44,210 nt of DNA from IMG/VR virus record IMGVR_UViG_3300021437_000032, positions 1 through 44,210 of that record. One strand, written 5' to 3'. The position numbers and the translations under genes are program-made. This DNA comes from a virus. The notes below the pieces were generated by a model. It made no database searches and was not told where the DNA came from. It worked only from the letters and a program-made list of their open reading frames with translations. Shown in pieces: positions 1,355 to 44,210 of the stretch. Position 1 is the first letter of the stretch. Every line of letters starts with the position of its first letter.

Positions 1355-3049
1355 TTATCTAGGGCCGATACAAATAATTTCAACCCTTGCATCAATATTA
1401 GCAAGCGTACTTGGCGTTTGGACTGTTATACCGGCAGAGGTTGTTGTAAAAGCGATAGATTCTGAAAAGGCAACAGTAGTGGCACCATTTGCGCCAGAAT
1501 AAGTACAGCTTGGAATATCAGAAAATGTGCCAGCTAAGAAATTTATCAAATAATTACCTGTTGAAGATCTTGTGACTGACGATATTGCACCAGTATTTTT
1601 ATAAAGCGTACATGGACTTGTTGTACAATTTGTCTGATCTGTAGCACCTGCAATTCTAACTTTTTCAATTCTTAAATTATTTAATCCACTCGTCACCGTG
1701 CTAGCCAAAAACCCTTGAATTGTTTGCTTGGCTTTGAAGTCGGATCCTGTTTTTCTGCAAGAGATGTTAAATGATTGATTTGAAGCAACACCACCATTTC
1801 CAGTAACAACACCTACTCCCGTGAAAGAAATTGGGACAGCATTTACGTTTTGAGAATAAGTTACCGTTGAAGTTGGACTCGCTATGCAATATGGCTGCTG
1901 AGTAAATATTCCAGTATTGAAAGCAATATTATACTGACCTGCAGAGGGATTTACAAAGTTTCCATTTAGCCAATCCAAATTTTCTCCAGAAACAACACCT
2001 GTCGACGAAACCTCTGCTGTAAATTCATTTGTACACGCAATATCATTCGGACATTTTGAGTTGATAGAATTTTCCAGAGCGCTCCATCCTAAAATTGGAA
2101 CTTTAAATCTGAATTGAAATATGTCTCCGACTCCAGCAAGGCCAGTAGCTAGGGCTGTTGGAAATGTAAAGTCAGTCGAATTTGTGGAAACCGATAATAA
2201 AATATTAGATGGATTGTCAACTTGAGTTGTTATTACAAAAGGACCATATCCAACGGATGGAATTGAGTTTGCAACAGCAGATGCCTTAAAGAACCTTCCA
2301 ATATCACTTCTTGGTGTCGTTACGAGTTTAGAAAAATCAATTGAAACCTGACTTCCAGAAACCGTTGGAAGTGATATTTTAGCCGAAACGGCTGTAGGAA
2401 CTCCAGAGGTAAAAGTACCCCAAACCTCAAGCATATCTTTGTCTCGAGAGTAAAAAGCCTGAACTGCTGTTGGTGTTCCAAACCCTGTAAAAGTGGGTGT
2501 GTATGGCGTTGCTGAAATTGAATTGTTAGCACCGTTAAAATCTGCCTCGCCTAAAAAAGCTCTGTCAGCTATCAAAGCCGCTGATGCTGCGCTTGAAATG
2601 ACTTTCAAAGAAATTGAACCGCTTGATGGACAAGTAAAATAAAGTTTCGCAGTTTTTTGTCCCGAGGTAGAATTTAAAATTAAACTGTTCGCAATCGGAA
2701 CAACTTGAGCGTTTGCCCCATCCACAACTGTCAGAGTTAAGTTCGCATCTCCTCCGCTATAAATAAACGAGGCCATGCAATCTTTGCCCTGCATACCCGT
2801 TGGGACTGCAATCGGAGAGCTTAAAAGATATTGAGAGGTCGCCGCAGCTGTGAACGATGCCGACTTATTACCTTGAAGCGCAGACGAAGTGATCGTAAAA
2901 GTACCGCCAGAGTTTGACCAGCTTGCCTTTCCGTTTTCAAATCCCGCATTTAAAAGCAAGTTCTGAAAGTTACCCTGCTGTGATTGCGTCAAAGGAATCT
3001 GCTGCGCAAACCCAATCGTTGAAAATAAAAGTAATAAAATAAACTTCAT
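1355..3049 (-). CDS. Secreted-type fibre or adhesin protein with N-terminal carbohydrate-binding-like module
   Basis: 564 residues. It starts with a Sec signal peptide (MKFILLLLFSTIGFA, cleavage after the alanine). Residues about 30-170 look like a jelly-roll carbohydrate-binding module (NAGFENGKASW followed by beta-rich sequence). The C-terminal third holds two similar beta repeats of the form TG-Y-I-F-G-F-P-C, with paired cysteines. It lies in a run of fibre genes downstream of the baseplate genes, so a tail-fibre, spike or host-adhesion role is likely. Phage fibres normally lack signal peptides, so export to the periplasm or surface is the odd point. The start has AGGGGA eight bases upstream. 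Confidence 0.65.
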   Translation of the reverse strand: MKFILLLLFSTIGFAQQIPLTQSQQGNFQNLLLNAGFENGKASWSNSGGTFTITSSALQGNKSASFTAAATSQYLLSSPIAVPTGMQGKDCMASFIYSGGDANLTLTVVDGANAQVVPIANSLILNSTSGQKTAKLYFTCPSSGSISLKVISSAASAALIADRAFLGEADFNGANNSISATPYTPTFTGFGTPTAVQAFYSRDKDMLEVWGTFTSGVPTAVSAKISLPTVSGSQVSIDFSKLVTTPRSDIGRFFKASAVANSIPSVGYGPFVITTQVDNPSNILLSVSTNSTDFTFPTALATGLAGVGDIFQFRFKVPILGWSALENSINSKCPNDIACTNEFTAEVSSTGVVSGENLDWLNGNFVNPSAGQYNIAFNTGIFTQQPYCIASPTSTVTYSQNVNAVPISFTGVGVVTGNGGVASNQSFNISCRKTGSDFKAKQTIQGFLASTVTSGLNNLRIEKVRIAGATDQTNCTTSPCTLYKNTGAISSVTRSSTGNYLINFLAGTFSDIPSCTYSGANGATTVAFSESIAFTTTSAGITVQTPSTLANIDARVEIICIGPR

Positions 3050-3057
3050 AAAATCCC

Positions 3058-3741
3058 CTATCTAAGTAAAAGTTCTGACCCTTGAGTTAAAACTCTAAGA
3101 TCCGAAGTGGCTGTGTCTGTACCCCTTTGCAGGGTTACTAAAATAATGTCATTTGCTGCGACAGAAACACCATTGATTTGACCCGTTGTCGAAGTCAGAT
3201 CAAGAGTAACAGCAGAGGGAACGTTTGCCGTCGTTAAGGTAACAGCCGCATTTGTCGATGTTCTTTGATTTGTAACTGAGGTGATCGCATCAACGCCGTT
3301 TTTAATTAGAGTTGAAACTGACTGAACAAGGGCCGTACCAGTTACATCAGGTGAGTAAAACGGAATTATAATCTTGATCTGTTGACCACCGCCATAAGTG
3401 TTCGGCACCTTAATGGCAACAACTAGAGTCTGTCCCAATCCCGAACCAAATAAATAAACTCTGTTATTTACAGCATCGTAAGTTTGAATCGGGGCAAGTA
3501 AGCCATCTGACCACTGCAAAGACGATCCACCGCCACCGCCGATTAGACCTGTTGATATGGCCGTACTGAGCTGAGTATTTAACCCCGATGCGGTTACATA
3601 GATTTTTGAATCGTTAATAAGTTGAGCAGCTCCACCGCCAGCGGCAGTTAGCTCGGCCAATGATTTAACATCGGCATCTTGAATTTTTCCTGCTGCAAAT
3701 AAATTCACTGCAAAAAAAGTTAGAAGTAAAAATAATTTCAT
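3058..3741 (-). CDS. Secreted-type tail fibre-like protein
   Basis: 227 residues with an N-terminal signal peptide (MKLFLLLTFFAVNLFAA). The next part (IQDADV, then LINDSKIYV and LNTQLSTAI, then a poly-glycine linker GGGGGSS) resembles the N-terminal attachment segment of phage tail fibres. The rest is predicted to be beta-rich. The start has a strong ribosome binding site (AAAGGAGA). It lies in a cluster with three more fibre-type genes. Receptor binding is inferred from context and composition; no enzymatic domain is seen. Confidence 0.6.
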   Translation of the reverse strand: MKLFLLLTFFAVNLFAAGKIQDADVKSLAELTAAGGGAAQLINDSKIYVTASGLNTQLSTAISTGLIGGGGGSSLQWSDGLLAPIQTYDAVNNRVYLFGSGLGQTLVVAIKVPNTYGGGQQIKIIIPFYSPDVTGTALVQSVSTLIKNGVDAITSVTNQRTSTNAAVTLTTANVPSAVTLDLTSTTGQINGVSVAANDIILVTLQRGTDTATSDLRVLTQGSELLLR

Positions 3742-3754
3742 TCTCGCTCTCCTT

Positions 3755-4195
3755 TTAATATTTTGGGTAAACGGCTCGAAGCACTTGACCTAAAGCCGGA
3801 GCTGTAATCATCGTAATTGTTGCGCCGCTGATTGTATAGTCTAAACCTGCGCCCTGATTTAACAACAACCCGTCTAAAAATAAACGAACAGATATAGACG
3901 CAACAGGCGTAAACGCAAGCGTAAATGCTGTGTTTGTACCGTTAATTGTTCCTGACGGTATTTCTTGAAGACTATTTATTGCGACCGGAACTTGAACAAA
4001 CGTATTCGACGCGCCACTTAAAGTCTTATTTATAAGAGTATCAGAACTAGACCTTCCGACTAAAGTATCAGTCGCAGAAGGCAAGGAATATGTTTTTGTC
4101 TTATCTGGACTCGTTATTGAGTCAGCGTCAATTGATCGAGTTGAGGCCGCAAAGGCCCCAGTCGAAAAAAAGAGAATGGCAATAATAAATTTCAT
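3755..4195 (-). CDS. Secreted-type fibre protein with shared modules A and B
   Basis: 146 residues. Signal peptide MKFIIAILFFSTGAFA, then a module (TRSIDAD, SLPS, TLVG, LINKTLSGASNT) that is also present in the next upstream gene, then a C-terminal beta module (GTINGTNTAFTL, LFLDGLLL, APALGQV) that occurs twice in the large fibre protein at 4912-6312. It is therefore a short mosaic of the fibre set. The start has GGGAG. It is probably a minor fibre or fibre-tip protein; why it is exported is unknown. Confidence 0.6.
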   Translation of the reverse strand: MKFIIAILFFSTGAFAASTRSIDADSITSPDKTKTYSLPSATDTLVGRSSSDTLINKTLSGASNTFVQVPVAINSLQEIPSGTINGTNTAFTLAFTPVASISVRLFLDGLLLNQGAGLDYTISGATITMITAPALGQVLRAVYPKY

Positions 4196-4214: not shown

Positions 4215-4910
4215 TTATCGACGACTTAACTCAGACCAAGAAGCACCAGTCCAAACTAGAGTGATTGAGCTGTCAAGACCCAAAACAATAGGACCGTTTA
4301 AAGACAAGCCAGAACCGTCAGAAAGTGTAACTGTGTTTGTCGCAGACTTTCCAATAAGAACAAATCTTTGACCAACATTCGTACCAGCCGCGATTTGAGG
4401 GTTCGCCGTGATAACTTGTGGTGCCGCAGAGCCAGCAACAAAGGCATAGTTCTCATAAGCTGTTCCTGTAAAAGCAATCCCAACGGCTGCTAAAACTAAA
4501 GTCGGTGAAGCATTTGTTCCTGTAACCGAAGGCGCAGACGAAGGAATAGCAGCCCAAGACGCAACAGTACCGTTCGATGTTAAGAACTGACCATTTGCTG
4601 CAGTTTGCGATGGAGCAAGGGCCGTGAACGCCGCACTAGCCGTAGCTTGTCCAGTACCACCATTTGCAATCGCAATCGTACCCGAAGCAATCGCAGACGC
4701 AGGAACGTTTGAAATTGTATTCGTCGCGCCAGAAATCGTCTTATTTGTTAAAGTCGCGGTGGTATCAATACCGTCTAACGTTGTTGTGACAGACGGCAAA
4801 CTAAGAACAGCAGCGCCGTTTGTGATTTGTTGACCATCAAGAATTCGAGTGGCCGAAGCCATTGAAACCGATGTTGCTAATAAAATTAGCGTTGATAAAA
4901 ACTTCTTCAT
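4215..4910 (-). CDS. Secreted-type tail fibre protein with shared modules A and C
   Basis: 231 residues. Signal peptide of about 20 residues ending in SMASA, followed by a module homologous to the one in the next gene (TRILDG, SLPS, LTNKTISGATNT). The middle has IANGGTGQATASAAFTAL, a motif common in phage tail fibres. The last 70 residues (VTANPQI, LIG, LSDG-GLSLNG, W-ELSRR) match the C-terminus of the fibre protein at 4912-6312. The ribosome binding site is AAGGAG. A structural or adhesive fibre role is likely. Confidence 0.65.
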   Translation of the reverse strand: MKKFLSTLILLATSVSMASATRILDGQQITNGAAVLSLPSVTTTLDGIDTTATLTNKTISGATNTISNVPASAIASGTIAIANGGTGQATASAAFTALAPSQTAANGQFLTSNGTVASWAAIPSSAPSVTGTNASPTLVLAAVGIAFTGTAYENYAFVAGSAAPQVITANPQIAAGTNVGQRFVLIGKSATNTVTLSDGSGLSLNGPIVLGLDSSITLVWTGASWSELSRR

Positions 4911-24927: not shown

Positions 24928-25475
24928 TTATTAAATATATCCCATACTATTTTTAAGCTATCAGATTGAAAACCCTCTGTCATATTCTTATATGACAGAG
25001 AACGCGTCTCTCTAAGAGAGTACATTTCTGGACTTTGATCAAGTTCATAATTACAAGCCGAGCTAATAAATAAAGCTGTCTCCTCGGTGCAGATCAAACC
25101 ATTCTGCCCGTTTACTTTTAAGTTAGATAATATTTTTCCAATTGATTTTAAACTTATCTTGATTCCAACTAGACCCATTTGAAGGAATGAGTATTTAACT
25201 CCGATGAGTTTTGTCAGAAGCTCTCTAGGGTTTTCAGATTTAATATTCAACTCAATGATTTCTTTTAACTCATAATCAGTAGCAACATCATATATTGACG
25301 CAGCTCTAGAGCCTGAGAAAGTAACACCGTATGATTTAGCATTGGCATAGTCATCGTTAGTAACCTCTAGTATTTCAACATGATTGAACTCTAGGCACTC
25401 AATGAATCTAATTAAAGAAGCAAGCGGCTTGAATGATCCTTTGTTCTTTAAAAAGATAGAATAATACTTAATCAT
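24924..25475 (-). CDS. Permuted NlpC/P60 (papain-like) hydrolase, YiiX-like
   Basis: 183 residues from the ATG at 25475, which overlaps the previous stop (ATGA); a TTG at 25529 is an alternative. Catalytic order is that of permuted papain folds: a histidine near the start (NHVEIL, about residue 34) and a cysteine much later (LICTEETALF). Also seen is the GVKYSFLQMGLVGIK linker typical of YiiX-type enzymes before the cysteine. Such enzymes cleave peptide or amide bonds in cell-wall or lipid substrates. Its place between a secreted protein and portal genes is unusual. Activity is inferred. Confidence 0.65.
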   Translation of the reverse strand: MIKYYSIFLKNKGSFKPLASLIRFIECLEFNHVEILEVTNDDYANAKSYGVTFSGSRAASIYDVATDYELKEIIELNIKSENPRELLTKLIGVKYSFLQMGLVGIKISLKSIGKILSNLKVNGQNGLICTEETALFISSACNYELDQSPEMYSLRETRSLSYKNMTEGFQSDSLKIVWDIFNK

Positions 25476-25948
25476 AAAAGCACTTTGTGCAGGTGAAAGT
25501 TCACTCTGGCTTTCACAGAAGTTGCGCAAGTGTTTGTGTATAACGCTCTCAGAGTTAGACCAGATGAAATTTTAGATGGATATGTTAGTTGTGTATCCAT
25601 GTCGGCTGCGTACCAGTTTATAAACTCACTTAGAACGGGATATTTTGGAAACGCCACTCTGTAGGGCACAGGTATTTGGCCTGCGGTGTCCACAACTTGA
25701 AGCTTGATTTTATCATCAGAGCAGCCATTTGTAATAATAAGCTTTGCACCTGTCAGCAAGTTATCATCAGTCATTGGCAAATCTATGACGTAATCTGCTG
25801 TGTTAGCCGGAACTGTCCCTGCTATTCCAAGTCCATTGAAAACAACTTTCGTCTTATCGAAGTCCGCAACAGTCTTTGGATCAAATGAGGTGCCGCTTGC
25901 TGAAAATACGTTTAACGAAAATAGAACAAGTAAAATAAAATACTTCAT
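25472..25948 (-). CDS. Small secreted protein of unknown function
   Basis: 158 residues with a Sec signal peptide (MKYFILLVLFSLNVFSA). The mature part is beta-rich and holds two cysteines far apart (NGCSDDKIKL and TNTCATS), which may form a disulfide in the periplasm. It ends VNFHLHKVLL. GAGGAAT precedes the start. It follows the giant secreted protein by 4 bases and may be its partner. Confidence 0.6.
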   Translation of the reverse strand: MKYFILLVLFSLNVFSASGTSFDPKTVADFDKTKVVFNGLGIAGTVPANTADYVIDLPMTDDNLLTGAKLIITNGCSDDKIKLQVVDTAGQIPVPYRVAFPKYPVLSEFINWYAADMDTQLTYPSKISSGLTLRALYTNTCATSVKARVNFHLHKVLL

Positions 25949-25952
25949 ATAG

Positions 25953-28900
25953 TTATTCCTCTGTATAGATCACGTTTATGGCCATTAAGTTACCAATTAT
26001 CGTAGATGAATTGAAATTGATTGCGACCTGCTCCGTTGCGCTCGATAAGGTCATATCTTTTAAAGATCCATTTGTTGTGTCGAATTCAACAGGGGTTTGC
26101 GTAGAGCCAGCGACGTTGATGCGAAGTAACTTCGTGCTGAAAGTTCCAATCGCTGTTCCAAGTGTTGGGTTCGCTGTGTACGCCCTAACTGTCGCAGCAG
26201 ATGCGGCTTGTGCTGGATCAGATGCGACAGGTGTGATTGTTGTCGATGTTCCAGCCGTATCCAGAGTTGATCGTTTAATTAAAGATACTCTGATAGTTCC
26301 AGATGTTGTTTGCTCGCCGTCTACATACACATATTTAATTCTGATTTTTTTTCCAGCAGCGCCGGCGATAGTAAAGACATCGGTCGGTGTTGTTGCCGTC
26401 ACTGCACCTTGAAACGAAGCATGATAAGTGTTTTGAATGTTCGGCTTGATATCAACTGGCACCGCATTTGTAGTGGTGGTGGTGGTTAAATTGTTAACCA
26501 AACTTAAATCGTTTCCGGCCCGATCACCGAGCTTTATATATTCTTGCGCTGGAATTTTTCTAGATCCTGAGCTTAAAAACAAAGATGTCGTTGCAGATGC
26601 ACCGTTATTTGTTAACTTAACTCTCCAATATCTTGTCGGGATGTATTGTGTCTCTTGAAACCGCGTAGATGCAGGCGTTAATAATGTGTCCATCACATTT
26701 ATGTTTGTCTGATCTGGACTGATTTCAAAAGAGTATGTCGTTGGTTGATCTGCAATGTAATATAAGTTTGCACCAGCTCCATAAAAGTTTGTATCAAACC
26801 ACGGTGAAGTATAAGTCGCACCCGCTGCTAAGTTCGTAGAACTAAAATCTAAAACTTGTGACTCATCATCAACTTTAATACCAACCGATGTAGTTTGATC
26901 CGACGCTATTGTCACAGGCAAACTCAGAGCCTTTGTCGTCTGACCCAAAGAGAACGAAGTACCATTCACTTCATCCAAAGACGTTGGCGCATTACCCTTT
27001 GCTGTCGCGCTTGGTATTGTTCCATAAGCCGTATTTAAATTAAGTGTTGTCGTTGCAGAGGCACCCGTGTTTTGAAAAGTTACATTGATATAGTTCCCAT
27101 TTATTGGAAACGATTTTGAAAACTGAGCGTTTGCAATGATTGGAATTACTATTGGAGGAACCTTTCTAGTTCCTGCCAAATCAATATACTGATTGACTGT
27201 TAAAGTTCCGTTTTGATCCGATGTTAAAAGTAATGATATTGATTGTTGATTCTGAGCAGTTTCAATTGTTCCCGTGAACGTTGCTCCAGCCGCAAGTTGT
27301 ACTGTTGTTGAATTCAGAGTTGAAAACACGAAACCAGTCGACGAAATAGCAACCTCTAAAGCCTTACCACCATTACCGTCTGTCAAAGATGATATAGCGT
27401 TACCAGTTCCATCACTAAGCCAAGCGGCAGTTGAATCAGTTGATGCGAGTGAGTTCCAAGTTCTTGATGTTGGGATTGCACTTTGGTTTGATGCAATCAC
27501 CACAGGCTTTGAGTTTGCCATTGTAGCTTGACCGACAACTGTTGTCTTTGAATCAATCGAAGCTAGTGAAGTATTCGCTGTGGTTTGTAAAGTTGAGGTA
27601 GAGGCTGTGGCCGGCAAAGGTAAACTTGCTGCTGAAATTGGAATAGTATTGTTGGGGCTCACAGCCACAACTAAAGCTTGATCTGTTGCAAGTGCCGCAG
27701 TGGATGCAGCCTTCACGGTGAGACCCGTTGGGATCTTGCTATTCATCGCAGATTGCGTCGTCTCAAGATTTAAAGCTGACGTGTTTAAATTAGTCCCTGC
27801 GTTTGCAGTTATAGAACCAGAGTCAACAACAGTGTGCAAGTTTGTGCCTGTGGCTTGTGTAACAGTAGTGTTCGCAGTGTTCGTAGCTATCGTACTTAGC
27901 GTTGCAAGCTCTGTTGTTTGATTTGCTGAACTTGCTGCACCATTTGGTAAAGGAAGAGATGTCGTTGAACTAGCATCAACCTTTAAAGCGTTGGCCTGAT
28001 TTGCTGCTGTGTCGGCCTTTACCGTAACTGTGTTTGTGATCGAAGTCACAGCGGCTAATGTTGATGCAGGTTTAAGTAAAGTGTTAACTGATGAATCTAA
28101 AGCGAGACCGCCCGTGGTACCGATATTTGAAGTCACAGTCCCAGCCACGTTTTGAGTTGCTGGAAAGTTGCTCACCGAAACTGTCGGTGTTCCTGAAATA
28201 GAAACTGATCCTGAGACGGGTTGAGTTACTGCTGACCCATCAACCTTCAAGCCGTTTGCTGTTGTTGTAAGTTTTCCATTAATTGCAGCAGTTGATGTGT
28301 CCGTGCTTGCCGCATGACCAGATTCTAAAGCTAGGCCGCCTGTTGTTCCAATGTTTGATGTAACTGTTCCCGAAACAGTTTGAGTATCTGCTGGCTTTGT
28401 TCTTGTCGAAAGCGCAACATCAATATTATCTGTCTTTGCTTTTATCAGTGCCAACGTAGAATCCATTGATGCCAAGTGACCAGCCTCAAGCGCCAAGCCT
28501 GCTGTCGAAGTTGGGTTTGCGATTGTTACAACATCCGATGAGGTTAACGCACGAATAGACCTAGCATCATAAAATGCGGTGCCATCTGATAGTCTATTTG
28601 AATAAGGCGCCGCCGCAGTTGTCCTATCAACAAAAGCACCAGTTCCAATATTAAAAGTCGGCGTCGTAGCAAATGCTGGGAGTAAACCAGAAATGCCAAA
28701 AGAAGAATTTGCGATAGATCCAATGACATTACTCCCGGTTGAAAGTCCAACATTCCAAACCCCAGATTGAGTTGAGCCGAAAACTGTATTCGTGATCGAA
28801 CCCAAAGCATTGGTTCCGGCAGGCAGTGATCCACTGATTCCAAAGCTTGAATTTGAAACTGCAACGGTTCCACCAATTGTTAAAGGACTAGTCAACTTTG

Positions 28901-29909
28901 AATCAATCGAAGCTAAACTTGTATTCGCCGCTGACTGCAACGCACTTGTTGATGCTCCACTCGGCAAAGGTAGTGCTAAAGCTGAAACCGGTTGCGTTGA
29001 CGGTAGGTTTGAAACAGCGACTGAACCATTTACAGTTTGAGAACTTGGAAAGTTATTCACACCAACCGAAGTCAATGGAGTTAAGGCATTTAATTGAGCT
29101 GCTGGTAGAACGACAGGAACCGAAGCGGCCGATAGTGCTTGGCCCAGTGCAGGTGTCTTTGAATCAATACTTGATGCGCTTGTTTGAATTGTCGAGAGAC
29201 TAGAGTTACCTGCTGTCTGCAATGCCGATGTTGAAACGTTGGTTGGAAAGTTTGAAACGCTTACTGTTCCTGTGACTGGCATGCTTGAGTTTGTAAAAGT
29301 TGTTTGAAGAGTTCCATCTGCGGCAACTTTTAAGGCCTGTAATTTAGTGCCATCAAAACCACCAACCATTGTCGCTTGGGGAGGAGCGATTGCGTTAGGT
29401 GTTCCGTTAGCACTATTTGTTGTTGTGATTGAACCCGAAATAGGTATCGGCGTTTGATCCGTAGCCAATACCACCGCCATAGAACCACTGGCTGTTTTTT
29501 GACCCAGCGTTGGAAGTTTTTGATCTATATTATTCAAATAAGTATTTGCAGTTGTTTGAAGTGTCGAAGTCGATGCGTTAGTTGGCAATGCAATAGACCA
29601 AGGCGCCCCACCCTGAAAGGCAGTGATTTGATCCGACGTGCTCAGCGTCCAGTTTCTATTTCTAGGATCAATTATTGTATTAGAAAAAACCTCTGAAACA
29701 TACAATGGTAGCAGTGGGCTAGAAGTCACATTTGCGTTCACCGCACCAGAAGCCAAGTTCACGTCTATCGCTTGCTTTGGCCCAACTGTTGTGCTCGTAA
29801 TCTTTGCGCCATTGCCGTCTAAGGTTTTAGAGTTCACTTGTCCCAGTGGTGGGGTATCGGCTAAAATTGCAATGCTAAATAAAAATGTAAGTATTAATAA
29901 AATTCTCAT
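25953..29909 (-). CDS. Giant secreted repeat protein, fibre or adhesin-like
   Basis: 1318 residues, the largest gene. It has a signal peptide (MRILLILTFLFSIAILA) and then about 800 residues of degenerate repeats such as ASTSALQTAANTSLASIDSK, VSGTVSVSNFP and GLALESGHAAS, a composition common in very large phage or viral fibre-type proteins. The last 450 residues are less repetitive (FNSTTV, FYGAGANLYYIAD, VFTIAGAAGKKIRIKYVYVDG) and probably form globular beta domains. It lies between terminase and portal rather than with the tail fibres. Adhesion or receptor binding is likely. The ATG has AGAGGAG. Confidence 0.65.
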   Translation of the reverse strand: MRILLILTFLFSIAILADTPPLGQVNSKTLDGNGAKITSTTVGPKQAIDVNLASGAVNANVTSSPLLPLYVSEVFSNTIIDPRNRNWTLSTSDQITAFQGGAPWSIALPTNASTSTLQTTANTYLNNIDQKLPTLGQKTASGSMAVVLATDQTPIPISGSITTTNSANGTPNAIAPPQATMVGGFDGTKLQALKVAADGTLQTTFTNSSMPVTGTVSVSNFPTNVSTSALQTAGNSSLSTIQTSASSIDSKTPALGQALSAASVPVVLPAAQLNALTPLTSVGVNNFPSSQTVNGSVAVSNLPSTQPVSALALPLPSGASTSALQSAANTSLASIDSKLTSPLTIGGTVAVSNSSFGISGSLPAGTNALGSITNTVFGSTQSGVWNVGLSTGSNVIGSIANSSFGISGLLPAFATTPTFNIGTGAFVDRTTAAAPYSNRLSDGTAFYDARSIRALTSSDVVTIANPTSTAGLALEAGHLASMDSTLALIKAKTDNIDVALSTRTKPADTQTVSGTVTSNIGTTGGLALESGHAASTDTSTAAINGKLTTTANGLKVDGSAVTQPVSGSVSISGTPTVSVSNFPATQNVAGTVTSNIGTTGGLALDSSVNTLLKPASTLAAVTSITNTVTVKADTAANQANALKVDASSTTSLPLPNGAASSANQTTELATLSTIATNTANTTVTQATGTNLHTVVDSGSITANAGTNLNTSALNLETTQSAMNSKIPTGLTVKAASTAALATDQALVVAVSPNNTIPISAASLPLPATASTSTLQTTANTSLASIDSKTTVVGQATMANSKPVVIASNQSAIPTSRTWNSLASTDSTAAWLSDGTGNAISSLTDGNGGKALEVAISSTGFVFSTLNSTTVQLAAGATFTGTIETAQNQQSISLLLTSDQNGTLTVNQYIDLAGTRKVPPIVIPIIANAQFSKSFPINGNYINVTFQNTGASATTTLNLNTAYGTIPSATAKGNAPTSLDEVNGTSFSLGQTTKALSLPVTIASDQTTSVGIKVDDESQVLDFSSTNLAAGATYTSPWFDTNFYGAGANLYYIADQPTTYSFEISPDQTNINVMDTLLTPASTRFQETQYIPTRYWRVKLTNNGASATTSLFLSSGSRKIPAQEYIKLGDRAGNDLSLVNNLTTTTTTNAVPVDIKPNIQNTYHASFQGAVTATTPTDVFTIAGAAGKKIRIKYVYVDGEQTTSGTIRVSLIKRSTLDTAGTSTTITPVASDPAQAASAATVRAYTANPTLGTAIGTFSTKLLRINVAGSTQTPVEFDTTNGSLKDMTLSSATEQVAINFNSSTIIGNLMAINVIYTEE

Positions 29910-30048: not shown

Positions 30049-31530
30049 CTACTCGTTTAATCCGTGCCCTGATATTGGCGCTCTTATAGGTCCAGTGTGA
30101 CGAAGGTAATCTAATGCCTGCGAAGTTGTATCCACAATGTCATCATTTGTTCCAAACGGAAATGAAAGGTGCTCATCAATCCAAACATTTATCCACGGTG
30201 CGATTGATTCATCAGGAACCCAAACATGACCAGATTCGAACATTGGAGCCACAGCATTTAGTCTAGCTACCTTATCACCGCGCGGTTCGATCATTACAAT
30301 ACCCTGCATTGAATTGCGTAAAGTCTGCTCAACGGCTGGACCATTGGCCTTTGCCTCGAATAGTTTTTTATAAGCCTTCGGGAACTCATTTGAAACGTCT
30401 ATTACTTTTTGAACTGAAACTGGAAAACTAAATCGACCCCTGACCATAGCAAGCAAGTATCGGTTCATTCCGATTCTGCCCCAAACCGTACCAACAACGT
30501 AATCGGAGTTTGATTTGTCCTTTGATGCGAAATCCCAAGATTGAATAACCTCATCGAACTTGTCAGGTAGAACTTTATAGAACCTCATGTGCTCTTGCTT
30601 TATTATATTACCGCCGTCAATTCTTGGAGTCTGTTGATAAAGCGCTGCCCATTCTCGAGTACCGACCGATGCTTTAGTTGCTAGCATATTCTTTAAACTA
30701 AATTTAGATGGCCATAGTGGCTCACCAATCATGCGGTGATCGTCAGGGTGTCCCTCTTCCTCTTTGATTGCTGGCAAACTAAGAACTACCCATTGATCAG
30801 ATTCAGGATCAGACTTTGCCAGTTGAAGTAATTTTCCAGAAAGGTCAGACTCATGCCATCGCGTTTGTGTGATTAGAATTGAACCCTCGCCCTCAAGCCG
30901 AGTTCTGATTGTTGATGCGTAGAATTTAAACATCATTTCACGATAACTTGCGCTATCTGCGTCCTGTCTGTTCTTAACTGGGTCATCAATAAAACAAGCG
31001 TTAGCACCTTTTCCAGTAAATGAACCACCGACACCTGCTGATTTATATGAGCCAGTGTACCAAGTGTAGAGTTTGTCTGGGTGTTGGAATGGCATAATCT
31101 CATGCTCATTTGCATTTCTTGAATAGCCAGTTTTAGAACCATTGGGTGGAATTTTGACCATTGGGAAAATACGCTTGTAAGCGTCCGTGTCCATTATTCT
31201 TTGAACATCTTTTGTCATGTCAGACGCTAAGTTGTTATTATAAGACACCGCCATCAACTCATCGTTTGGGTAGAGTCCATGCCAAAGGGCTGGAAGTCTG
31301 CGCGAAGTCAGCTCACTCTTACCGTGGCGCGGGGGTACGAATACCATTAGCCTTCTAATCTTTTTCTGAATGAATGCGTTTAAATAATTAAAAAAGATTT
31401 CATGATGCCAATTGATTTCATATTCTGGAAAGGTTGCCTTCGTGAAAGCTCGCAAGTCTCCGGCGCGAGCCTTCTTATCAAGCAACTCTCTTTTAGCTAA
31501 GGCCAATTGTTGAAGTTTGTTTATGTCCAC
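30049..31530 (-). CDS. terL: Terminase large subunit
   Basis: 493 residues. The ATPase has a Walker A (PPRHGKSE, about 66-73), a Walker B-like strand (ACFIDDP, about 178-184) and a motif III (TQTRWHESDLSG, 221-232). The C-terminal RNase H-like nuclease shows the acidic triad candidates: Asp333 in SWDFASK, and Asp463/464/467 in TNDDIVDTTSQ. It pumps and cuts DNA at the portal. It starts with GTG at 31530, overlapping TerS by one base. Which packaging type (cos, pac or headful) cannot be told. Confidence 0.95.
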   Translation of the reverse strand: MDINKLQQLALAKRELLDKKARAGDLRAFTKATFPEYEINWHHEIFFNYLNAFIQKKIRRLMVFVPPRHGKSELTSRRLPALWHGLYPNDELMAVSYNNNLASDMTKDVQRIMDTDAYKRIFPMVKIPPNGSKTGYSRNANEHEIMPFQHPDKLYTWYTGSYKSAGVGGSFTGKGANACFIDDPVKNRQDADSASYREMMFKFYASTIRTRLEGEGSILITQTRWHESDLSGKLLQLAKSDPESDQWVVLSLPAIKEEEGHPDDHRMIGEPLWPSKFSLKNMLATKASVGTREWAALYQQTPRIDGGNIIKQEHMRFYKVLPDKFDEVIQSWDFASKDKSNSDYVVGTVWGRIGMNRYLLAMVRGRFSFPVSVQKVIDVSNEFPKAYKKLFEAKANGPAVEQTLRNSMQGIVMIEPRGDKVARLNAVAPMFESGHVWVPDESIAPWINVWIDEHLSFPFGTNDDIVDTTSQALDYLRHTGPIRAPISGHGLNE

Positions 31531-32006
31531 TACTCGCTCAGCTTCTTAATCTCTTCCTCAAGCTCATCCGCAGTCATCTTTGAATAGCTCACGGCTATCG
31601 GGTCACCATTCAACCCCGTGTGCTCAATCCTATCCGTTCGGGTAAACCCCATCTTTGTAGATAAGTAGAACTCAAGCAAACGCTCGCTCGGTTTCGCAGG
31701 TCTCTTTATGAGCTTTTTCTCGCGCTTAATCTCTTTTCCACTTTCATCAACTGTTATAATGCTTTCCTGAATCCCAACCTCTTCGCGAGTAATTTGTTTA
31801 AATAAAGAGTTTAAAACCACTGTATGCGCGTTGGTCTTTCCTTTTGTTAAAACTTCACGCAATCTGTCAGTGGTCATGATCATTCTCTGAAACGTGTCGA
31901 GAGATACTCCGATCATGCAAGCCATTCCCTCTTGAGTTAATCCAAGATAAGCAAACTTCTCAAGGTTCGCGTAATCCTCTTCAGTTAATTTCTTTTTATG
32001 TGTCAT
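31530..32006 (-). CDS. terS: Terminase small subunit (HTH)
   Basis: 158 residues. The N-terminal HTH fits small terminases (YANLEKFAYLGLTQEGMACMIG, then TFQRMI), followed by a helical central oligomerisation part (LFKQITREEV) and a C-terminal tail (KMTADELEEEIKKLSE). It recognises the packaging site and hands DNA to TerL, its immediate neighbour. GAGGAAC precedes the ATG. The early-late divide falls just upstream. Confidence 0.85.
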   Translation of the reverse strand: MTHKKKLTEEDYANLEKFAYLGLTQEGMACMIGVSLDTFQRMIMTTDRLREVLTKGKTNAHTVVLNSLFKQITREEVGIQESIITVDESGKEIKREKKLIKRPAKPSERLLEFYLSTKMGFTRTDRIEHTGLNGDPIAVSYSKMTADELEEEIKKLSE

Positions 32007-32095: not shown

Positions 32096-32551
32096 TCATG
32101 CGTCTTGATCTGTGGTATGGTTTCTGATTTTTATGGCTTTGAACCTTATATCGACGTACTCGCCTAAAGATATGTGTGGGCTGGGGTTCTTTTTAAACTT
32201 ACCGTCCCAGAAATAACTATCATCTATGCCGAGCATCTTTGAGAGTATGTCGTCTAGGGCTTTAATTCTATTTGAGGTATCATTCTTTAGGGGAGTTCCC
32301 TTTGAGCTTATTATTCGATCAGATCTGAAATAGAAGTCCCTCTCAACCGATAGAACCTCTCCGTGCTTAAGTGATTTGATTTGTTCTTGTGCAGTTATTA
32401 GTTGATGGCCGTTTTTATATATCCAGATTTGAGCCTGAGTTTCGTATTGTTTGTACTTGGCCGTTTTGAACCTTCCACCTTGTGGTGAGTTTGCGTAAAG
32501 TACATTAGCAGATGGAGGCATCGGGAAGCCCTTTATTTCAAACGGAAGCAT
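32096..32551 (-). CDS. rusA: RusA-type Holliday junction resolvase
   Basis: 151 residues. The family signature is plain: NDTSNRIKALDDILSKMLGIDDSYFW, cited here as SNRIKALDD then GIDDSYFW with the catalytic aspartates, and an N-terminal PPSANVLY. RusA dimers cut four-way junctions and would resolve recombination or replication intermediates before packaging. It is the last early gene, next to the terminase. The start overlaps the HTH gene by 19 bases. Confidence 0.9.
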   Translation of the reverse strand: MLPFEIKGFPMPPSANVLYANSPQGGRFKTAKYKQYETQAQIWIYKNGHQLITAQEQIKSLKHGEVLSVERDFYFRSDRIISSKGTPLKNDTSNRIKALDDILSKMLGIDDSYFWDGKFKKNPSPHISLGEYVDIRFKAIKIRNHTTDQDA

Positions 32552-32730
32552 TTTATATCCAAACCATGCACACTTATTAAGCGATACATTGTTGCTCTTG
32601 CTATTTTTGAAACCTTGCAGGCTGCTGTTATGTCGCCTTTGAATTCTTTTAGAATAATCTCAATGTATTCTTTTTGAACTTCTCTTAGGGTTTGGTACTG
32701 TTTTATTTGTTTTGGCAACGTATATTCCAT
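32533..32730 (-). CDS. Fis-type helix-turn-helix protein
   Basis: 65 residues, essentially a single HTH: EYIEIILKEFKGDITAACKV then KIARATMYRLIS, the Fis / NtrC C-terminal type, with a leading helix. Such stand-alone HTH proteins bind inverted repeats and could activate the late genes, whose first promoter region lies just downstream. It has no AAA+ domain, so it cannot drive sigma54 by itself. A DNA-binding role is likely, the target is inferred. Confidence 0.75.
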   Translation of the reverse strand: MEYTLPKQIKQYQTLREVQKEYIEIILKEFKGDITAACKVSKIARATMYRLISVHGLDIKCFRLK

Positions 32731-32976: not shown

Positions 32977-33210
32977 TTATTTCGATTTTAAACGTTTTGA
33001 GAATAGAAGGTGTTTGCAATCTGGGCAGTTAGTGAGCCAATCAGACGTTGTTGCCTTCTTTTTTCCCCAGTCATTTTGACCAGCACAATGATGACTGAAA
33101 CAATAATAAGCATATATTATTTTTGTTTTGCTCGAACTTATAACTCCAAGATCCTCGGTCGATTGATTCGTTAACCCAGAACTCTGAAGGTATGCCACGA
33201 TTCTAGACAT
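32977..33210 (-). CDS. Zinc-ribbon-like small protein
   Basis: 77 residues. Two cysteine pairs (CFSHHC and CPDC, about 35 residues apart) suggest a zinc ribbon. The pattern C-F-S-x-x-C-x-G then CPDCK-L-L also occurs in the protein at 37518-37763, so they look like paralogs. The N-terminal half is unremarkable. Nucleic-acid binding is a reasonable guess. The start follows the histone gene stop directly. Confidence 0.6.
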   Translation of the reverse strand: MSRIVAYLQSSGLTNQSTEDLGVISSSKTKIIYAYYCFSHHCAGQNDWGKKKATTSDWLTNCPDCKHLLFSKRLKSK

Positions 33211-33212
33211 TT

Positions 33213-33386
33213 TTAAATATCACGGGCCATTACTGTTTTTCGCTGAGCCATCTTTGCGTTTATGGCAGCTCTTTTTAAAATCTCTTTTACAATAAGGTCT
33301 AGCTCTTTTATAACAAGACCCGAATTTTGAAGACCCTCTGCCTTTAAAATAGCACGAACTTTGTTTGCTGTGATCGTGTTGACCAT
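33213..33386 (-). CDS. Bacterial-type histone-fold protein
   Basis: 57 residues from the ATG at 33386, chosen for AAGGGG eight bases upstream rather than the longer ORF at 33479. The sequence reads as a minimal histone fold: helix 1 (TANKVRAILKAEG), a loop with the conserved Ser-Gly (NSGL), a long helix 2 (about residues 24-46), then a loop and short helix 3 RKTVMARDI at the very end. RKT then a hydrophobic, then a short DI matches archaeal and bacterial histones; the truncated helix 3 matches the bacterial type described from Bdellovibrio. It would bind phage or host DNA as a dimer. Function is inferred. Confidence 0.75.
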   Translation of the reverse strand: MVNTITANKVRAILKAEGLQNSGLVIKELDLIVKEILKRAAINAKMAQRKTVMARDI

Positions 33387-33500
33387 AACCCATACCCCTT
33401 TATGATTTAGTCTAGTTTTATAAAACATGAAGTCAAATATAAAAGCCGATGTAAAGGCCAGCTCGGCAAACACTGTCAAACGGGTGGATAATTCCCTGCC

Positions 33501-36926: not shown

Positions 36927-37028
36927 TCATACTCTATCCAATAATAAAATCCATAATATGCAAAACACAACTAGTGCGGCAAAGAACTTGTCAGCACTTA
37001 AGCTATCTAAATAATCTAGAATAATCAT
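36927..37028 (-). CDS. 33-residue membrane peptide
   Basis: A single hydrophobic helix (FFAALVVFCILWILLL) with a short charged tail. The ATG overlaps the stop of the YiiX-like gene (ATGA), so it is probably made with that enzyme and could be a pinholin- or regulator-type peptide. Function inferred only from size and neighbour. Confidence 0.45.
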   Translation of the reverse strand: MIILDYLDSLSADKFFAALVVFCILWILLLDRV

Positions 37029-37585
37029 TTTAACCTCGACGAGTATATTGTTTCATAAAACAAATCCATATTTGAAAGTTCATCAGGTGTAACAATATCA
37101 TCAATAGGAACGTCCGTTGCGTCTGCCGCAAGCTCTGAGCAGTAAAACTTCTTTTTATCTTTACTGAACTCATAGTCATATTCGGCACCGATTTGTTTCG
37201 CTGCCCAAGCACCAAATTCTATTCTCTCGTATTTATTTTTATTTCGTCGTCTTAATATGGCTACTTCTTTTTTTGCAAATAACCACTCGAGAAGTTCTAC
37301 TTCTCTAACACCAGTCCCAACGGCCTCAACAACAAACTTATCTTTTAACTCATGAGATAAAATATCCTTGTCGTTAAATATTGAGGCGTGAGTCCAGAAC
37401 CCAGGAATGAATAAGCTTGTAAAGTGCCACTTCTCATAAGAAAGCAACACGTCACCACCCTCTGTTTTTTCTATTATGTTTTTAGCTTTTTCCCAAGTCA
37501 TTCCAGATTCGGGTGCCTTAATAATCTGCATAACTTTTTGAATCGGAGTCGTTATCAGAAATAAAAAATGCTTCATTTTGTTCAT
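37025..37585 (-). CDS. YiiX-type permuted NlpC/P60 hydrolase
   Basis: 186 residues with a clear YiiX layout: GDVLLSYEKW, then a histidine in FWTHASIF, then FVVEAVGTGVREVEL, then AEYDYEFSKDKKKFYCSEL with the catalytic cysteine. Such enzymes act on amide or ester bonds, for example in cell wall or lipids. The hydrophobic N-terminus (FLFLITTPIQKV) may anchor it in the membrane. It is encoded with a 33-residue membrane peptide and lies in the early block, not beside the lysis genes. AAGGAT precedes the start. Confidence 0.8.
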   Translation of the reverse strand: MNKMKHFLFLITTPIQKVMQIIKAPESGMTWEKAKNIIEKTEGGDVLLSYEKWHFTSLFIPGFWTHASIFNDKDILSHELKDKFVVEAVGTGVREVELLEWLFAKKEVAILRRRNKNKYERIEFGAWAAKQIGAEYDYEFSKDKKKFYCSELAADATDVPIDDIVTPDELSNMDLFYETIYSSRLK

Positions 37586-37763
37586 GTATTAAATCCTTTT
37601 TTTTAGGTCGTTTTATTTTCCAAACTAATATGCTCTTACACTTCGGGCAGAACATTGTTCCCCGTGGAACATCAAATAAAATACTCGTCGAGTGATTTGG
37701 CGCGTACTTGCCAGTGCAGCTCATCGAGTAACAATATGCCTTAGGTTGATTTGTTGAGTTCAT
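37518..37763 (-). CDS. Zinc-ribbon-like protein
   Basis: 81 residues. A cysteine pair CYSMSC near residue 12 and CPKCK near residue 41 suggest a zinc ribbon; the pattern matches the protein at 32977-33210. The C-terminal half is charged. It may bind DNA or regulate an early enzyme, possibly the adjacent RecT. It overlaps both neighbours. Confidence 0.6.
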   Translation of the reverse strand: MNSTNQPKAYCYSMSCTGKYAPNHSTSILFDVPRGTMFCPKCKSILVWKIKRPKKKDLIHEQNEAFFISDNDSDSKSYADY

Positions 37764-38436
37764 CGGCTAACTCTTGTGCTGGTGATACGTCTTTTAATTC
37801 CTCAGTAGCTGTCGTCTCGCTATCCCACTCGGCAATTCCAACTCCGTTCATTTTATCCGCAAACAAAGATTTAATTCCAAGAGCACGAGCCTTATATCTT
37901 AACATGGCCTTTGTATATTTTGACCACGGCATTGATGAGCTCTTAGCTGGGTACAAATCAGATTTTCTAGCGTCGTCGAGAGTGTACGCAAACGATTGAG
38001 TCTCTGATTTATTTCGAGCCATAAAACAAACCGCTCCGTAAACCTCTGCGTGTAAGTTTTTATTTTCAAAGCAAATTATATTGTAATCTTTATCAAATAG
38101 CTGCTCTTTTAAAAAACTTAACTCACCAGATGATTGAGCCAGAGCCAACGGCAGGTCTCCGTATATTTGTGGCACTCCGTGAACGACTGCTGTTTGTCTA
38201 ATCGAAACGTCTGGTAGTCCTAGGGCTCGAACAAACATCAACGCCCCAAAGAGCTTTTGGGGCGTGTTGAATTGCTTTGGCACCATCTCTGACTGAACAA
38301 GAGCGTTACAGTATCTAAGTAGTTCCCCGTTATTTTTAGCAAGCACACGTCCCTTTTCGTCAAGAGCTATGGCCGCAGGCGCTTGATTCATTGGTCGGTG
38401 ATCGTCTTTTTGTTCCTCGTTTATCTGTTCTTCCAT
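37741..38436 (-). CDS. RecT-like single-strand annealing protein
   Basis: 231 residues. The RecT/Beta-like core shows in KLFGALMFVRALGLPDVSIR and VPQIYGDLPLALA, then ESETQSFAYTLDDARK-like beta elements and PWSKYTKAMLRYKAR. These proteins anneal ssDNA and work with a 5-prime exonuclease, which is encoded just upstream. AAGGGAT precedes the ATG. Together with RusA this forms a complete recombination set. Confidence 0.85.
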   Translation of the reverse strand: MEEQINEEQKDDHRPMNQAPAAIALDEKGRVLAKNNGELLRYCNALVQSEMVPKQFNTPQKLFGALMFVRALGLPDVSIRQTAVVHGVPQIYGDLPLALAQSSGELSFLKEQLFDKDYNIICFENKNLHAEVYGAVCFMARNKSETQSFAYTLDDARKSDLYPAKSSSMPWSKYTKAMLRYKARALGIKSLFADKMNGVGIAEWDSETTATEELKDVSPAQELADELNKST

Positions 38437-38438
38437 TT

Positions 38439-39425
38439 TTATATCCCTTCGTTTAGTTTTTTTGCTTCTCTGTTTTCAATCTCTGATAATTTATATGGTG
38501 GAAAATCTATAGTTCCTATTTTTTCAAAACCTGTTGGGTACTTTCCAGCGGCGTGACACTCTTTGAACGTGTATATGTTCTTAGTATAATCGGCCCTGCC
38601 GCACTCCATTGTTGCGCCGCCAAGAATGCTCATCATGGTTGTGTACGGCGGCGTTGTTTCTACCGCAAACACTGCGAACGCTGTCGGTAGCTTTGTTAAA
38701 AACTCTAAAGCGTCTGCGTAAAAAGCGCCCTGAATATGTGTGTCGTCTTTTGAAATAAAGTTTTGAAGGTCTCGCTCAGTCGTTAAGCTATTGGTCGTTT
38801 TTAAGTCAATCGCAAATTGCTTAAACCCTGCTATGTTTTTATCAAGTGATTTAAAATAGTCTACTCGAAAGCTTATAATTACGCCACATTCATGAATAAC
38901 CCAACCCAGTTTTTCAGCCTCGCCATCTTTTAACAACAAATCAACCGAAGGAATGTCCTTTATTCTTTCGAGGATTCGTTTGGCTGCGCGATATTCTTTT
39001 TTTTTCATAATCTCACGGCCCGAACAATATCGCTCAATGTACTCGTCATACGTTTCAAATACAGAACCATGATCCCTAAGCCTGCTCACAAGATCGGATT
39101 TCGTTCCTGAAACTTTTAGCCCTTCATTTAAGCACCACTCTTTTAAATCATCCAAAGTGTGTAAAACATTTATTGGAAGTTCAGAATCGTCAGGTTCCTC
39201 AACGAACATCATTTCGAATTTTTCAGGCTCAAGAATCGCATAATGCAAGCGAGTTCCCAAAGTCATCGCCTTTGCACTCTCAAGCTCTTTTAAAATATAT
39301 GCAGATTCAAAATAAGCCGGACTCGTGTTGAAAGCCTTAAGTCCTGTTACATTTATTTTTGGATATATGGCAAGAATCTCATCTGGAACCAAACCCCAGC
39401 CTCCATGTGTGAATTGAGTTTTCAT
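38439..39425 (-). CDS. RecE/YqaJ-type exonuclease with inserted SAP domain
   Basis: 328 residues. Nuclease marks are TLGTRLHYAIL (about 55-65), Asp189 in FRVDYF, Asp207-x-Lys209 in IDLKT, and a QxxxY motif QGAFY (232-236), which fits PD-(D/E)XK exonucleases such as RecE or YqaJ. Between the first two parts (about 87-120) lies a SAP-like DNA-binding helix set: LHTLDDLKEWCLNEGLKVSG, then KSDLVSRLRDHG. The protein would make 3-prime ssDNA for RecT. The SAP insertion probably tethers it to DNA. Confidence 0.85.
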   Translation of the reverse strand: MKTQFTHGGWGLVPDEILAIYPKINVTGLKAFNTSPAYFESAYILKELESAKAMTLGTRLHYAILEPEKFEMMFVEEPDDSELPINVLHTLDDLKEWCLNEGLKVSGTKSDLVSRLRDHGSVFETYDEYIERYCSGREIMKKKEYRAAKRILERIKDIPSVDLLLKDGEAEKLGWVIHECGVIISFRVDYFKSLDKNIAGFKQFAIDLKTTNSLTTERDLQNFISKDDTHIQGAFYADALEFLTKLPTAFAVFAVETTPPYTTMMSILGGATMECGRADYTKNIYTFKECHAAGKYPTGFEKIGTIDFPPYKLSEIENREAKKLNEGI

Positions 39426-42290: not shown

Positions 42291-43151
42291 TTATTTTTTA
42301 TATTTTTGATCTAGTATTTTAGGAACCGCAAAATTCCATTTAATACTATGATGAAGTCTTTTATTTATTCGACCCATTAAACCAATTTTACAACAACTAG
42401 GTTCTGCGATTACGGAATAAAAAGATTTTGTATATGTTCCGTATTTTTTATATGAATCAGTGTTTCCTCCAGCGCTACTTTGAGTCAACACAGGAACAAT
42501 TGATACGTCAACAATTTGAAAAAATAATTTTCCTATTTTCCCCTGAGTTAAATAAGTATTAACATCATCGTTCATTCTTCCAATAAATATAAGATCGTCT
42601 TTAGGATTCTTATTCACTTTAAAAACAAAAGAATTCATTGCTTTTCTTTTGTAAGCATTATTAAAAAATGATCCTATTCCACCAATAAAATCACCCGCCT
42701 GAGCGAATGCTATTGTGCACGATTTAGTGTCATTCAGGCACTCTATCATGGCGTTTAATATTCTATCTAAATTTTTTGCATCAAAACTTCTAAGTATAGT
42801 ACCTTCTGTTTTTCTATAGCAAATTTCACGATAATCATCTTCATATTCAAAAAAATAATCTAACCCAAGTGATCTAGCTATTTCATAGCAAGCATTACGA
42901 GCATAAACTATGACCTTGTTTCCTGAAAAATTATCCATTTTATCAAACTTTCCTTCATAGCTTGATTTACTAAAAACAATTACTTCTTGACCATATTTTT
43001 GTTTATATTCAGATAGTGTTTTATCTTCATCATCGCAAATGATAAATATTTTTCCTGTATAACCAAAATTTCTTAATGTTTTATATGTAATTACATTGTC
43101 TGGCCTGCCGTGTGATAAAATAAAAACTGCAAAGTTAAATTTTTTGTCCAT
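42291..43151 (-). CDS. TET-associated glycosyltransferase (TAGT)-like
   Basis: 286 residues from the ATG at 43151, which has AAGGG seven bases upstream (an earlier ATG at 43175 is worse). N-terminal FAVFILSHGRPDN, then GKIFIICDDEDK, then an EDD triad at about 104-106 (FEYEDDYREI), which is the metal and nucleotide-binding site expected of GT-A-like enzymes. The SHGRPDN start and EDD are the signature of the TAGT/GREB1-like family, which glycosylates hydroxymethyl bases in phage DNA. It follows a sugar- or polyol-activating enzyme and ParB. DNA is the likely target; lipid or protein glycosylation is possible. Confidence 0.75.
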   Translation of the reverse strand: MDKKFNFAVFILSHGRPDNVITYKTLRNFGYTGKIFIICDDEDKTLSEYKQKYGQEVIVFSKSSYEGKFDKMDNFSGNKVIVYARNACYEIARSLGLDYFFEYEDDYREICYRKTEGTILRSFDAKNLDRILNAMIECLNDTKSCTIAFAQAGDFIGGIGSFFNNAYKRKAMNSFVFKVNKNPKDDLIFIGRMNDDVNTYLTQGKIGKLFFQIVDVSIVPVLTQSSAGGNTDSYKKYGTYTKSFYSVIAEPSCCKIGLMGRINKRLHHSIKWNFAVPKILDQKYKK

Positions 43152-43548
43152 TTTTTTCCCTTGTTTTTGCTTCATTTTTTATTTTTGTGCTGCTGTAATC
43201 ATGGTTTCTATCAAGGTAAAATATTTCTTTTTTCATTTTTTCAATTTCTTCCTTCATTTCCCATTGATGATTTTTATGATCTGAACCAAGAAAATAAATA
43301 TTATAATGAAGTGAAAAAAACATATTTCTATCGCGATCAATGTTTTCATACGGTATTACTTCATCGACCCATTTAACTGCTCTTAGCTGAATAAATCTTT
43401 CATAAATTGATTGTTGTGGGTTTTTGTAAAGAGGATTGCAATGAAGTCCAACAATAAGGTGGTCACAATTTTTTTTTGCCTGCTCTAGTGACAAAACATG
43501 GCCACTATGTAAAATATCAGCAACCATTGGAAAAAAACCTATTTTCAT
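43135..43548 (-). CDS. TagD-like cytidylyl/nucleotidyltransferase
   Basis: 137 residues. The family motif HxGH is present (HSGH, residues 14-17), RAVKWVDEVIP follows, and the late SSTKIKN (119-125) matches the signature ISSTxI(K/R). These enzymes join CTP (or ATP) to a polyol or sugar phosphate, for example glycerol-3-phosphate. Here it probably makes the activated donor for the neighbouring glycosyltransferase. GAGGTG lies ten bases ahead of the ATG. Confidence 0.85.
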   Translation of the reverse strand: MKIGFFPMVADILHSGHVLSLEQAKKNCDHLIVGLHCNPLYKNPQQSIYERFIQLRAVKWVDEVIPYENIDRDRNMFFSLHYNIYFLGSDHKNHQWEMKEEIEKMKKEIFYLDRNHDYSSTKIKNEAKTREKNGQKI

Positions 43549-43562
43549 TTTAGTAACACCTC

Positions 43563-44210
43563 TTAACTCTGCTCATCAGCTTCGTTATTTATATAACTTT
43601 CATTCATTTCTTTTGAAAGTTTTACAAAACCATTTTCTATGGCTTTATTGAAATCAATAATTACTAAAGCTGAGTTCTCAAATAATTCCTGTAATGATTT
43701 TATTGAATGAGCATAATAATTTGCTATTTTTTCATAATGAAAAACAATGTGCCTACTTGCTGAAAATATCAGAAACTCTTTTTCTTCGTTACTTAAATTA
43801 CTCTGCTTTATCTCGCTACATAAAGATTTATATTTATTAAGATCTACCAAATCATTTAAGTTAGGTTTCTCTCCGCTTGGCTCATAAATAGGAGTTTCTA
43901 TTTTGTCAGAATAAATGTTTTCATTTTCAACAACAGGTAAAATTTCAGACTCTTGTTGAGAAACTTTATTGTTAATTTCTTTAAAATCATTTGCAAAATC
44001 TGTTTGATCAAGTTCTTTCATTAGTTGATCAAGCTCAAGAGGTTGAACACCAAGTGATGCTAAGTTAAACTCTTGTAATTTCAAAGTTCCGATGTCGAAT
44101 TTCAAAGCATCAAGATTATACTCGTTAGATGATGTTTTGTTGTCTGCTATTCTTGCAGCTTTTACCCGATACTCATCAAGATCGTCAGCAATAACAATTG
44201 GCATTGTTTT
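43563..44210 (-). CDS. ParB-like protein, 5-prime end cut by the window
   Basis: At least 213 residues are visible; the frame continues beyond the window edge, so the ParB nuclease-type N-terminus is mostly missing. The visible start (DEYRVKAARIADNKTSSNEY) is the C-terminal part of the ParB fold, in the form used by phage ParB proteins that sit with DNA modification enzymes. The C-terminal part has RHIVFHYEKIANYYAHSI and ENSALVIIDFNKAIENGFVKL, which I associate with this phage subgroup. No methylase domain follows. It is not likely a partition gene. Confidence 0.75.
   Translation of the reverse strand, partial: KTMPIVIADDLDEYRVKAARIADNKTSSNEYNLDALKFDIGTLKLQEFNLASLGVQPLELDQLMKELDQTDFANDFKEINNKVSQQESEILPVVENENIYSDKIETPIYEPSGEKPNLNDLVDLNKYKSLCSEIKQSNLSNEEKEFLIFSASRHIVFHYEKIANYYAHSIKSLQELFENSALVIIDFNKAIENGFVKLSKEMNESYINNEADEQS

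Follow-up and report, generated by a model that had tools for sequence, protein, structure and literature searches.

A phage-encoded histone of the bacterial dimer type in a contractile-tailed phage genome

A small gene in a tailed-phage genome encodes what its sequence indicates to be a real histone, with the features of the bacterial dimers typified by HBb. The window analyzed here, i.e., the whole stretch of DNA under study, is an entire virus record of 44,210 bases. We estimate the probability at roughly two in three that the gene product is an HBb-like alpha3 histone, accessory to a contractile-tailed phage, which acts as a DNA-bending dimer on phage DNA and possibly on host DNA.

Alpha3 histones have been split into five categories (Schwab et al. 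2024; PMC11390915). In that scheme, “phage histones” carry a tetramerisation domain at the C-terminus and lack the RxTxxxD motif, and “bacterial dimers” are said to occur in bacteria only. The type member of the bacterial dimer alpha3 histones is HBb (Bd0055) of Bdellovibrio bacteriovorus (PDB 8CMP, 8FVX, 9EZZ and 9F0E).

The histone gene and its identity

A 57-residue ORF had been pointed out in a preliminary description that named no strand. It is present on the minus strand, running from an ATG at 33386 to the last codon at 33216-33218 and a TAA at 33213-33215, and its full product is MVNTITANKVRAILKAEGLQNSGLVIKELDLIVKEILKRAAINAKMAQRKTVMARDI. The gene has a good ribosome-binding site. Promoter-like sites such as the one listed below show no excess over chance in the surrounding region.

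33213..33386, minus strand: histone gene, alpha3 (bacterial-dimer type), 57 codons and TAA; from sequence, profile and PDB/Pfam searches, and predicted fold
33395..33401, minus strand: ribosome-binding site AAAGGGG, 8 bases upstream of the histone ATG
33409..33436, minus strand: candidate promoter-like site TTGACT-16-TAGACT (9/12 match), just upstream of the histone gene
33216..33242, minus strand: RKTVMARDI, containing the L2 loop KT motif, the RD clamp (R49-D56) and a one-turn helix 3; identical in HBb

The histone claim is carried by sequence evidence, with the fold evidence being supportive. A profile was built from cellular histones at 36 loci (mostly Bdellovibrionota, with a few Myxococcota, Spirochaetota and unplaced proteobacteria), excluding the window protein, and was run against the 669 stop-to-stop segments of the window. 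The window protein scored 42.1 bits (about 42-44) with E = 2.8e-12, a value that is somewhat flattering because the cellular histones were chosen by their resemblance to this very protein, whereas the next best segment reached 4.8 bits (E = 1.2). Among 5000 letter shuffles of the window histone, the top score was 12.1 bits, and the histone with RKTVMARDI removed still scored 16.1 bits. A chance ORF is ruled out by this test. The PDB and Pfam searches are free of the collection bias and agree with the profile at lower strength. When phmmer was run against all PDB sequences, the HBb entries came out on top (E = 0.0028 and 0.0031, residues 5-57 aligned), and the Pfam family CBFD_NFYB_HMF matched with E = 0.0065 at 17.2 bits, under the Pfam cut-off of 21.4. 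A PHROGs search returned no family. The preliminary description was to be abandoned if the protein aligned to no histone family, bacterial ones included; such alignments were found, both to HBb by phmmer and to the cellular-histone profile. Among cellular sequences, those nearest to it are Bdellovibrionota bacterial dimers, and in a histone tree of 64 columns the window protein sits on a very long branch.

Predicted structure

The AlphaFold2 monomer, predicted from an alignment of 38 histones, has a mean pLDDT of 91 and shows a helix at 7-16, a long helix at 22-46, and a three-residue (one-turn) last helix. The layout read earlier from the letters alone, namely helix 1, a Ser-Gly loop, long helix 2, an RKTV loop, and a very short helix 3, matches this prediction, and no fold other than a histone fold was seen by AlphaFold2, Foldseek, or VIA-align. 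Helix 3 is truncated to within the 3-4 residues of alpha3 histones. Helix 2 has no insertion relative to HBb, in agreement with an alpha3 helix 2 that is 4-5 residues shorter than in nucleosomal histones; the HBb helix 2 is one turn shorter than that of HMfB (PMC11317129). In the Foldseek comparison with PDB, the best 50 rows were histones or histone-containing complexes, none of them at E = 0.001 or better. VIA-align placed HBb first (Z 4.5), followed by the Leptospira histone HLp (Z 4.4), and a BFVD fold search gave weak matches, several of which are giant-virus histones. Modest absolute scores of this kind would be expected for the chain of an obligate dimer folded singly.

Residue conservation and class assignment

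The window histone is about 36% identical to HBb and shares with it the fold, the length, RKTVMARDI, the truncated helix 3, the RD clamp, and the lack of tetramer residues. On the other hand, the window histone is phage-encoded, ends at helix 3, and is more basic. With a net charge of +6 and a pI of 10.4, it is the most basic of the 38 compared, the other phage histones having a pI of about 9.7-9.9 and most cellular ones 7.8-9.1.

In simulations of HBb, the top ten DNA-contact residues were N22, R57, S9, T53, T8, S24, K10, K12, K52, and K16 (PMC11317129). Seven of these (K10, K16, N22, S24, K52, T53, and R57) are identical in the aligned window histone, and the other three are changed (in HBb numbering, K12 to Arg, S9 to Asn, and T8 to Ala). 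Given the changes at T8 and S9 and a loop 1 that has one residue fewer, part of the DNA contact differs from that of HBb. The RD clamp (HBb R51-D58) is retained, but D49, which assists the clamp, is changed. The dimer-interface residues named for HBb (V11, L31, I35, L38, and I59) correspond to V, L, V, I, and I, all hydrophobic. By analogy with HBb, the phage protein probably dimerises and binds and bends DNA.

The helix 1 lysines of bacterial dimers (profile positions 11, 13, and 17) appear as K9, R11 (Lys to Arg), and K15, and the RKTxxxD motif appears as RKTVMARD, which is invariant through D56 in the alignment of 38 sequences. The residues of face-to-face tetramers, R48 and N52, are absent, the window histone having Asn43 and Ala47 there (counted from RKT). 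The face-to-face alpha3 histone HLp of Leptospira perolatii (PDB 9QT0-9QT2) shares the fold, the truncated helix 3, and the RKT loop, but its tetramer residues R49 and N53 correspond to the same Asn43 and Ala47 (counted from the common RKT; PMC12701072). The phage histones of Schwab et al., e.g., A0A2E7QIQ9, are likewise alpha3 histone folds in tailed-phage genomes (PMC11390915), yet the window histone is their opposite in both defining traits. It stops one residue past Asp56, with no C-terminal alpha-helical tetramerisation domain, and it has the RxTxxxD motif. As far as its residues tell, the window protein has the tested features of bacterial dimers and falls outside the tested definition of phage histones.

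Phage-borne histones as such are already known, since another subfamily has been published (Schwab et al. 2024; PMC11390915). For HBb-type histones in phages, no report was found in the largely open-access literature searched, and the present case seems new. Protein p6 of phage phi29 possibly shares a role as a phage-encoded architectural DNA-binding protein; it wraps DNA as a multimer, unlike the model proposed here, and no similarity between the two proteins appeared in any search made.

The carrier phage and the gene neighborhood

PHROGs searches identified terminase, portal, major capsid, contractile sheath, and baseplate genes in the window, and the carrier is a contractile-tailed phage. 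Its main genes are all on the minus strand, and those found with Pfam include a BRO-N protein and a TET-associated glycosyltransferase. The histone gene has phage genes on either side in this tailed-phage record, as expected if it is phage-encoded. Its main neighbors are as follows.

37741..39425, minus strand: RecT-like annealing protein and PDDEXK exonuclease carrying a SAP domain, both encoded upstream of the histone gene (Pfam, PHROGs)
32977..33210, minus strand: 77-residue gene with a CPDC pair and an HHC cluster (zinc-ribbon-like, from sequence), starting 2 bases past the histone stop
32533..32730, minus strand: 65-residue Fis-family HTH_8 protein, nucleoid-protein-like, downstream of the histone (Pfam E = 4.4e-7)
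32096..32551, minus strand: RusA-like endodeoxyribonuclease (Pfam E = 2.9e-4, just under the cut-off; homologue in the same place in the relative L056)
30049..32006, minus strand: both terminase subunits (small and large), where the packaging/head block begins (PHROGs)

In transcription order, the recombination genes are followed by the histone, the Fis-like protein, RusA, and the terminase. The gene had been assigned to a phage early block. The phage setting holds, but “early” is imprecise, as the histone lies between RecT/exonuclease and RusA/TerS/TerL, a middle rather than a clearly early position.

The histone and the 77-residue downstream gene are probably in the same operon, and the 77-residue protein has no family in Pfam or PHROGs searches. 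A histone fold without a bulk DNA-binding role, acting as a partner or regulator, e.g., together with this linked zinc-ribbon-like protein, would fit the 2-base gap to a small cysteine/histidine-bearing gene and the existence of ZZ histones, in which a zinc finger is fused to a histone (PMC11390915). Nevertheless, the neighbor lacks a family match, the DNA-contact residues of the histone are kept, and no such neighbor was seen beside the other phage histones described below (L002/L003, L004). We regard this explanation as improbable.

Several other regions of the window were recorded. Six minus-strand proteins start with Sec-like signal peptides, which is odd for structural or fiber-like phage proteins (e.g., MKFILLLLFSTIGFAQQ, MKLFLLLTFFAVNLFAAG, and MRILLILTFLFSIAILAD). 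Their genes lie in the tail-end and post-terminase regions (1355-3049, 3058-3741, 3755-4195, 4215-4910, 25472-25948, and 25953-29909). In the minus-strand region 42291-44204, the TET-associated glycosyltransferase (Pfam TAGT, E = 1.2e-31) is adjacent to a cytidylyltransferase-like protein and to a gene truncated at the window end, a grouping that hints at glycosylated phage DNA. Homologues of the glycosyltransferase and the window-end gene are side by side in the relative L065. A YiiX-like permuted papain-fold amidase (37025-37585, minus strand; Pfam Peptidase_C92, E = 2.8e-16) is encoded by one of the small genes lying upstream of the histone gene, with a homologue near the tail genes in L056.

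Phage relatives, other histone-bearing phages and the host

Searches with the portal and capsid proteins found related phages at 48-83% identity, most above 64%, having the same head and tail gene order (RusA-TerS-TerL-portal-capsid-sheath). This shared surrounding order argues against a non-phage origin, in which the histone gene would be part of a cellular contig or the product of a chimeric assembly. In favor of such an origin, the record was assembled from a metagenome and carries no completeness estimate; against it stand also the single strand of the main genes, the phage genes on both sides, and the 2-base spacing to the neighboring gene, and we consider it extremely unlikely. No histone was detectable in the portal/capsid relatives, including three records of 45-49 kb, part of which were also covered by a local profile search. 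The histone is thus an accessory gene in the carrier lineage and is dispensable for the basic life cycle, since the relatives do without it.

Two other phage types in IMG/VR have the same kind of histone. L002 and L003, two nearly identical contigs (41% GC), represent one phage type with head protease, head, and head-morphogenesis genes; L004 (60% GC) has a phage DNA polymerase, a UvsX-like recombinase, and QueC and other queuosine-type genes. They surfaced only through an alignment with HBb, as IMG/VR searched with the window histone as a single sequence gave no match. A wider IMG/VR scan for R/S-KTVM-x-RD revealed no further phage histones: none of four additional contigs encodes a histone, and in L084 the motif is in a frame without other histone similarity. 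When three such histones were compared by tblastn with 50,697 deposited phage genomes, no convincing match emerged, in line with the initial impression that phages do not normally carry histones; a hit to Rhodobacter phage RcTitan in INPHARED (E = 6) was taken as chance. Between the window proteins and the stretches around the L002/L003/L004 histones, nothing matched besides the histone itself, and more than one uptake of a histone by phages is therefore likely.

Some details of these loci were also noted. A small Fis-family HTH_8 protein, like that at 32533-32730 of the window, is encoded at L002:2119-2463 (Pfam E = 5.7e-6), and the phage histone of L002 comes immediately after a BCS1-like AAA ATPase gene (L002:6645-8144). 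The L004 histone has a 35-residue C-terminal tail; its gene sits within a set of queuosine-type genes (radical SAM protein, QueC; L004:6123-8986), beside an SbcC-like gene block. Among cellular loci, a Bacteriovoracaceae MAG encodes a doublet of two HBb-type histone folds in one chain (L032:7437-7829; RKTVMARDF, RKTVMDRDF).

The host is possibly a member of Bdellovibrionota, from which the nearest cellular histones come. This is a guess, as none of the Bdellovibrionota genomes searched (up to 369) yielded a related prophage. Of 291 such genomes, 8 have terminase relatives, with an identity of 26-43% that is no higher than that seen with other phages, and searches without a positive control found no portal or capsid relatives in 291 and 369 genomes.

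Proposed function

In the mechanism we propose, the histone would be expressed from the region between the recombination genes and RusA/terminase. Two chains would pair via their long second helices, and the dimer would grip the DNA backbone without sequence preference, contacting it through the L1-L2 edges and the beginning of helix 1, and would bend DNA with no wrapping. In this way the histone could bend or coat phage DNA, and possibly the host chromosome, substituting for host nucleoid proteins. As gauged from the gene position, the target may be phage DNA (during replication, recombination, or the change to late expression) or the host nucleoid; a general architectural role is favored.

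The main rival to this architectural role is an attack on the host, in which the phage histone would pair with or displace the host histone, so that the nucleoid is disorganised or host transcription is shut down. HBb is abundant and not deletable from B. bacteriovorus (PMC10627809), the positions of its dimer interface are kept in the more basic phage protein, and the closest cellular relatives are from histone-bearing Bdellovibrionota. However, a histone in the actual host is only presumed, no prophage relative was found in Bdellovibrionota, identity to host histones is just 32-42%, and the gene position is middle, not clearly early. An attack on the host is accordingly judged unlikely. A broader conjecture, which we hold tentatively and rate only slightly higher, is that tailed phages of histone-bearing bacteria acquired a host chromatin protein on more than one occasion and employ it during infection by entering or replacing host histone chromatin.

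Significance

It was only in 2023-2025 that bacterial histones were established as major chromatin proteins (PMC10627809, PMC11317129, PMC12701072). The window histone is small and directly comparable with HBb, for which structures and assays exist. If phages carry HBb-type histones, bacterial histone chromatin could serve them as a target or a tool during infection, and uptake of host chromatin proteins, if true, would be a bacterial counterpart of viral chromatin hijacking. Phages would also provide a route for moving histones from one bacterial lineage to another, a point relevant to the question of why the distribution of histones in bacteria is so sparse.
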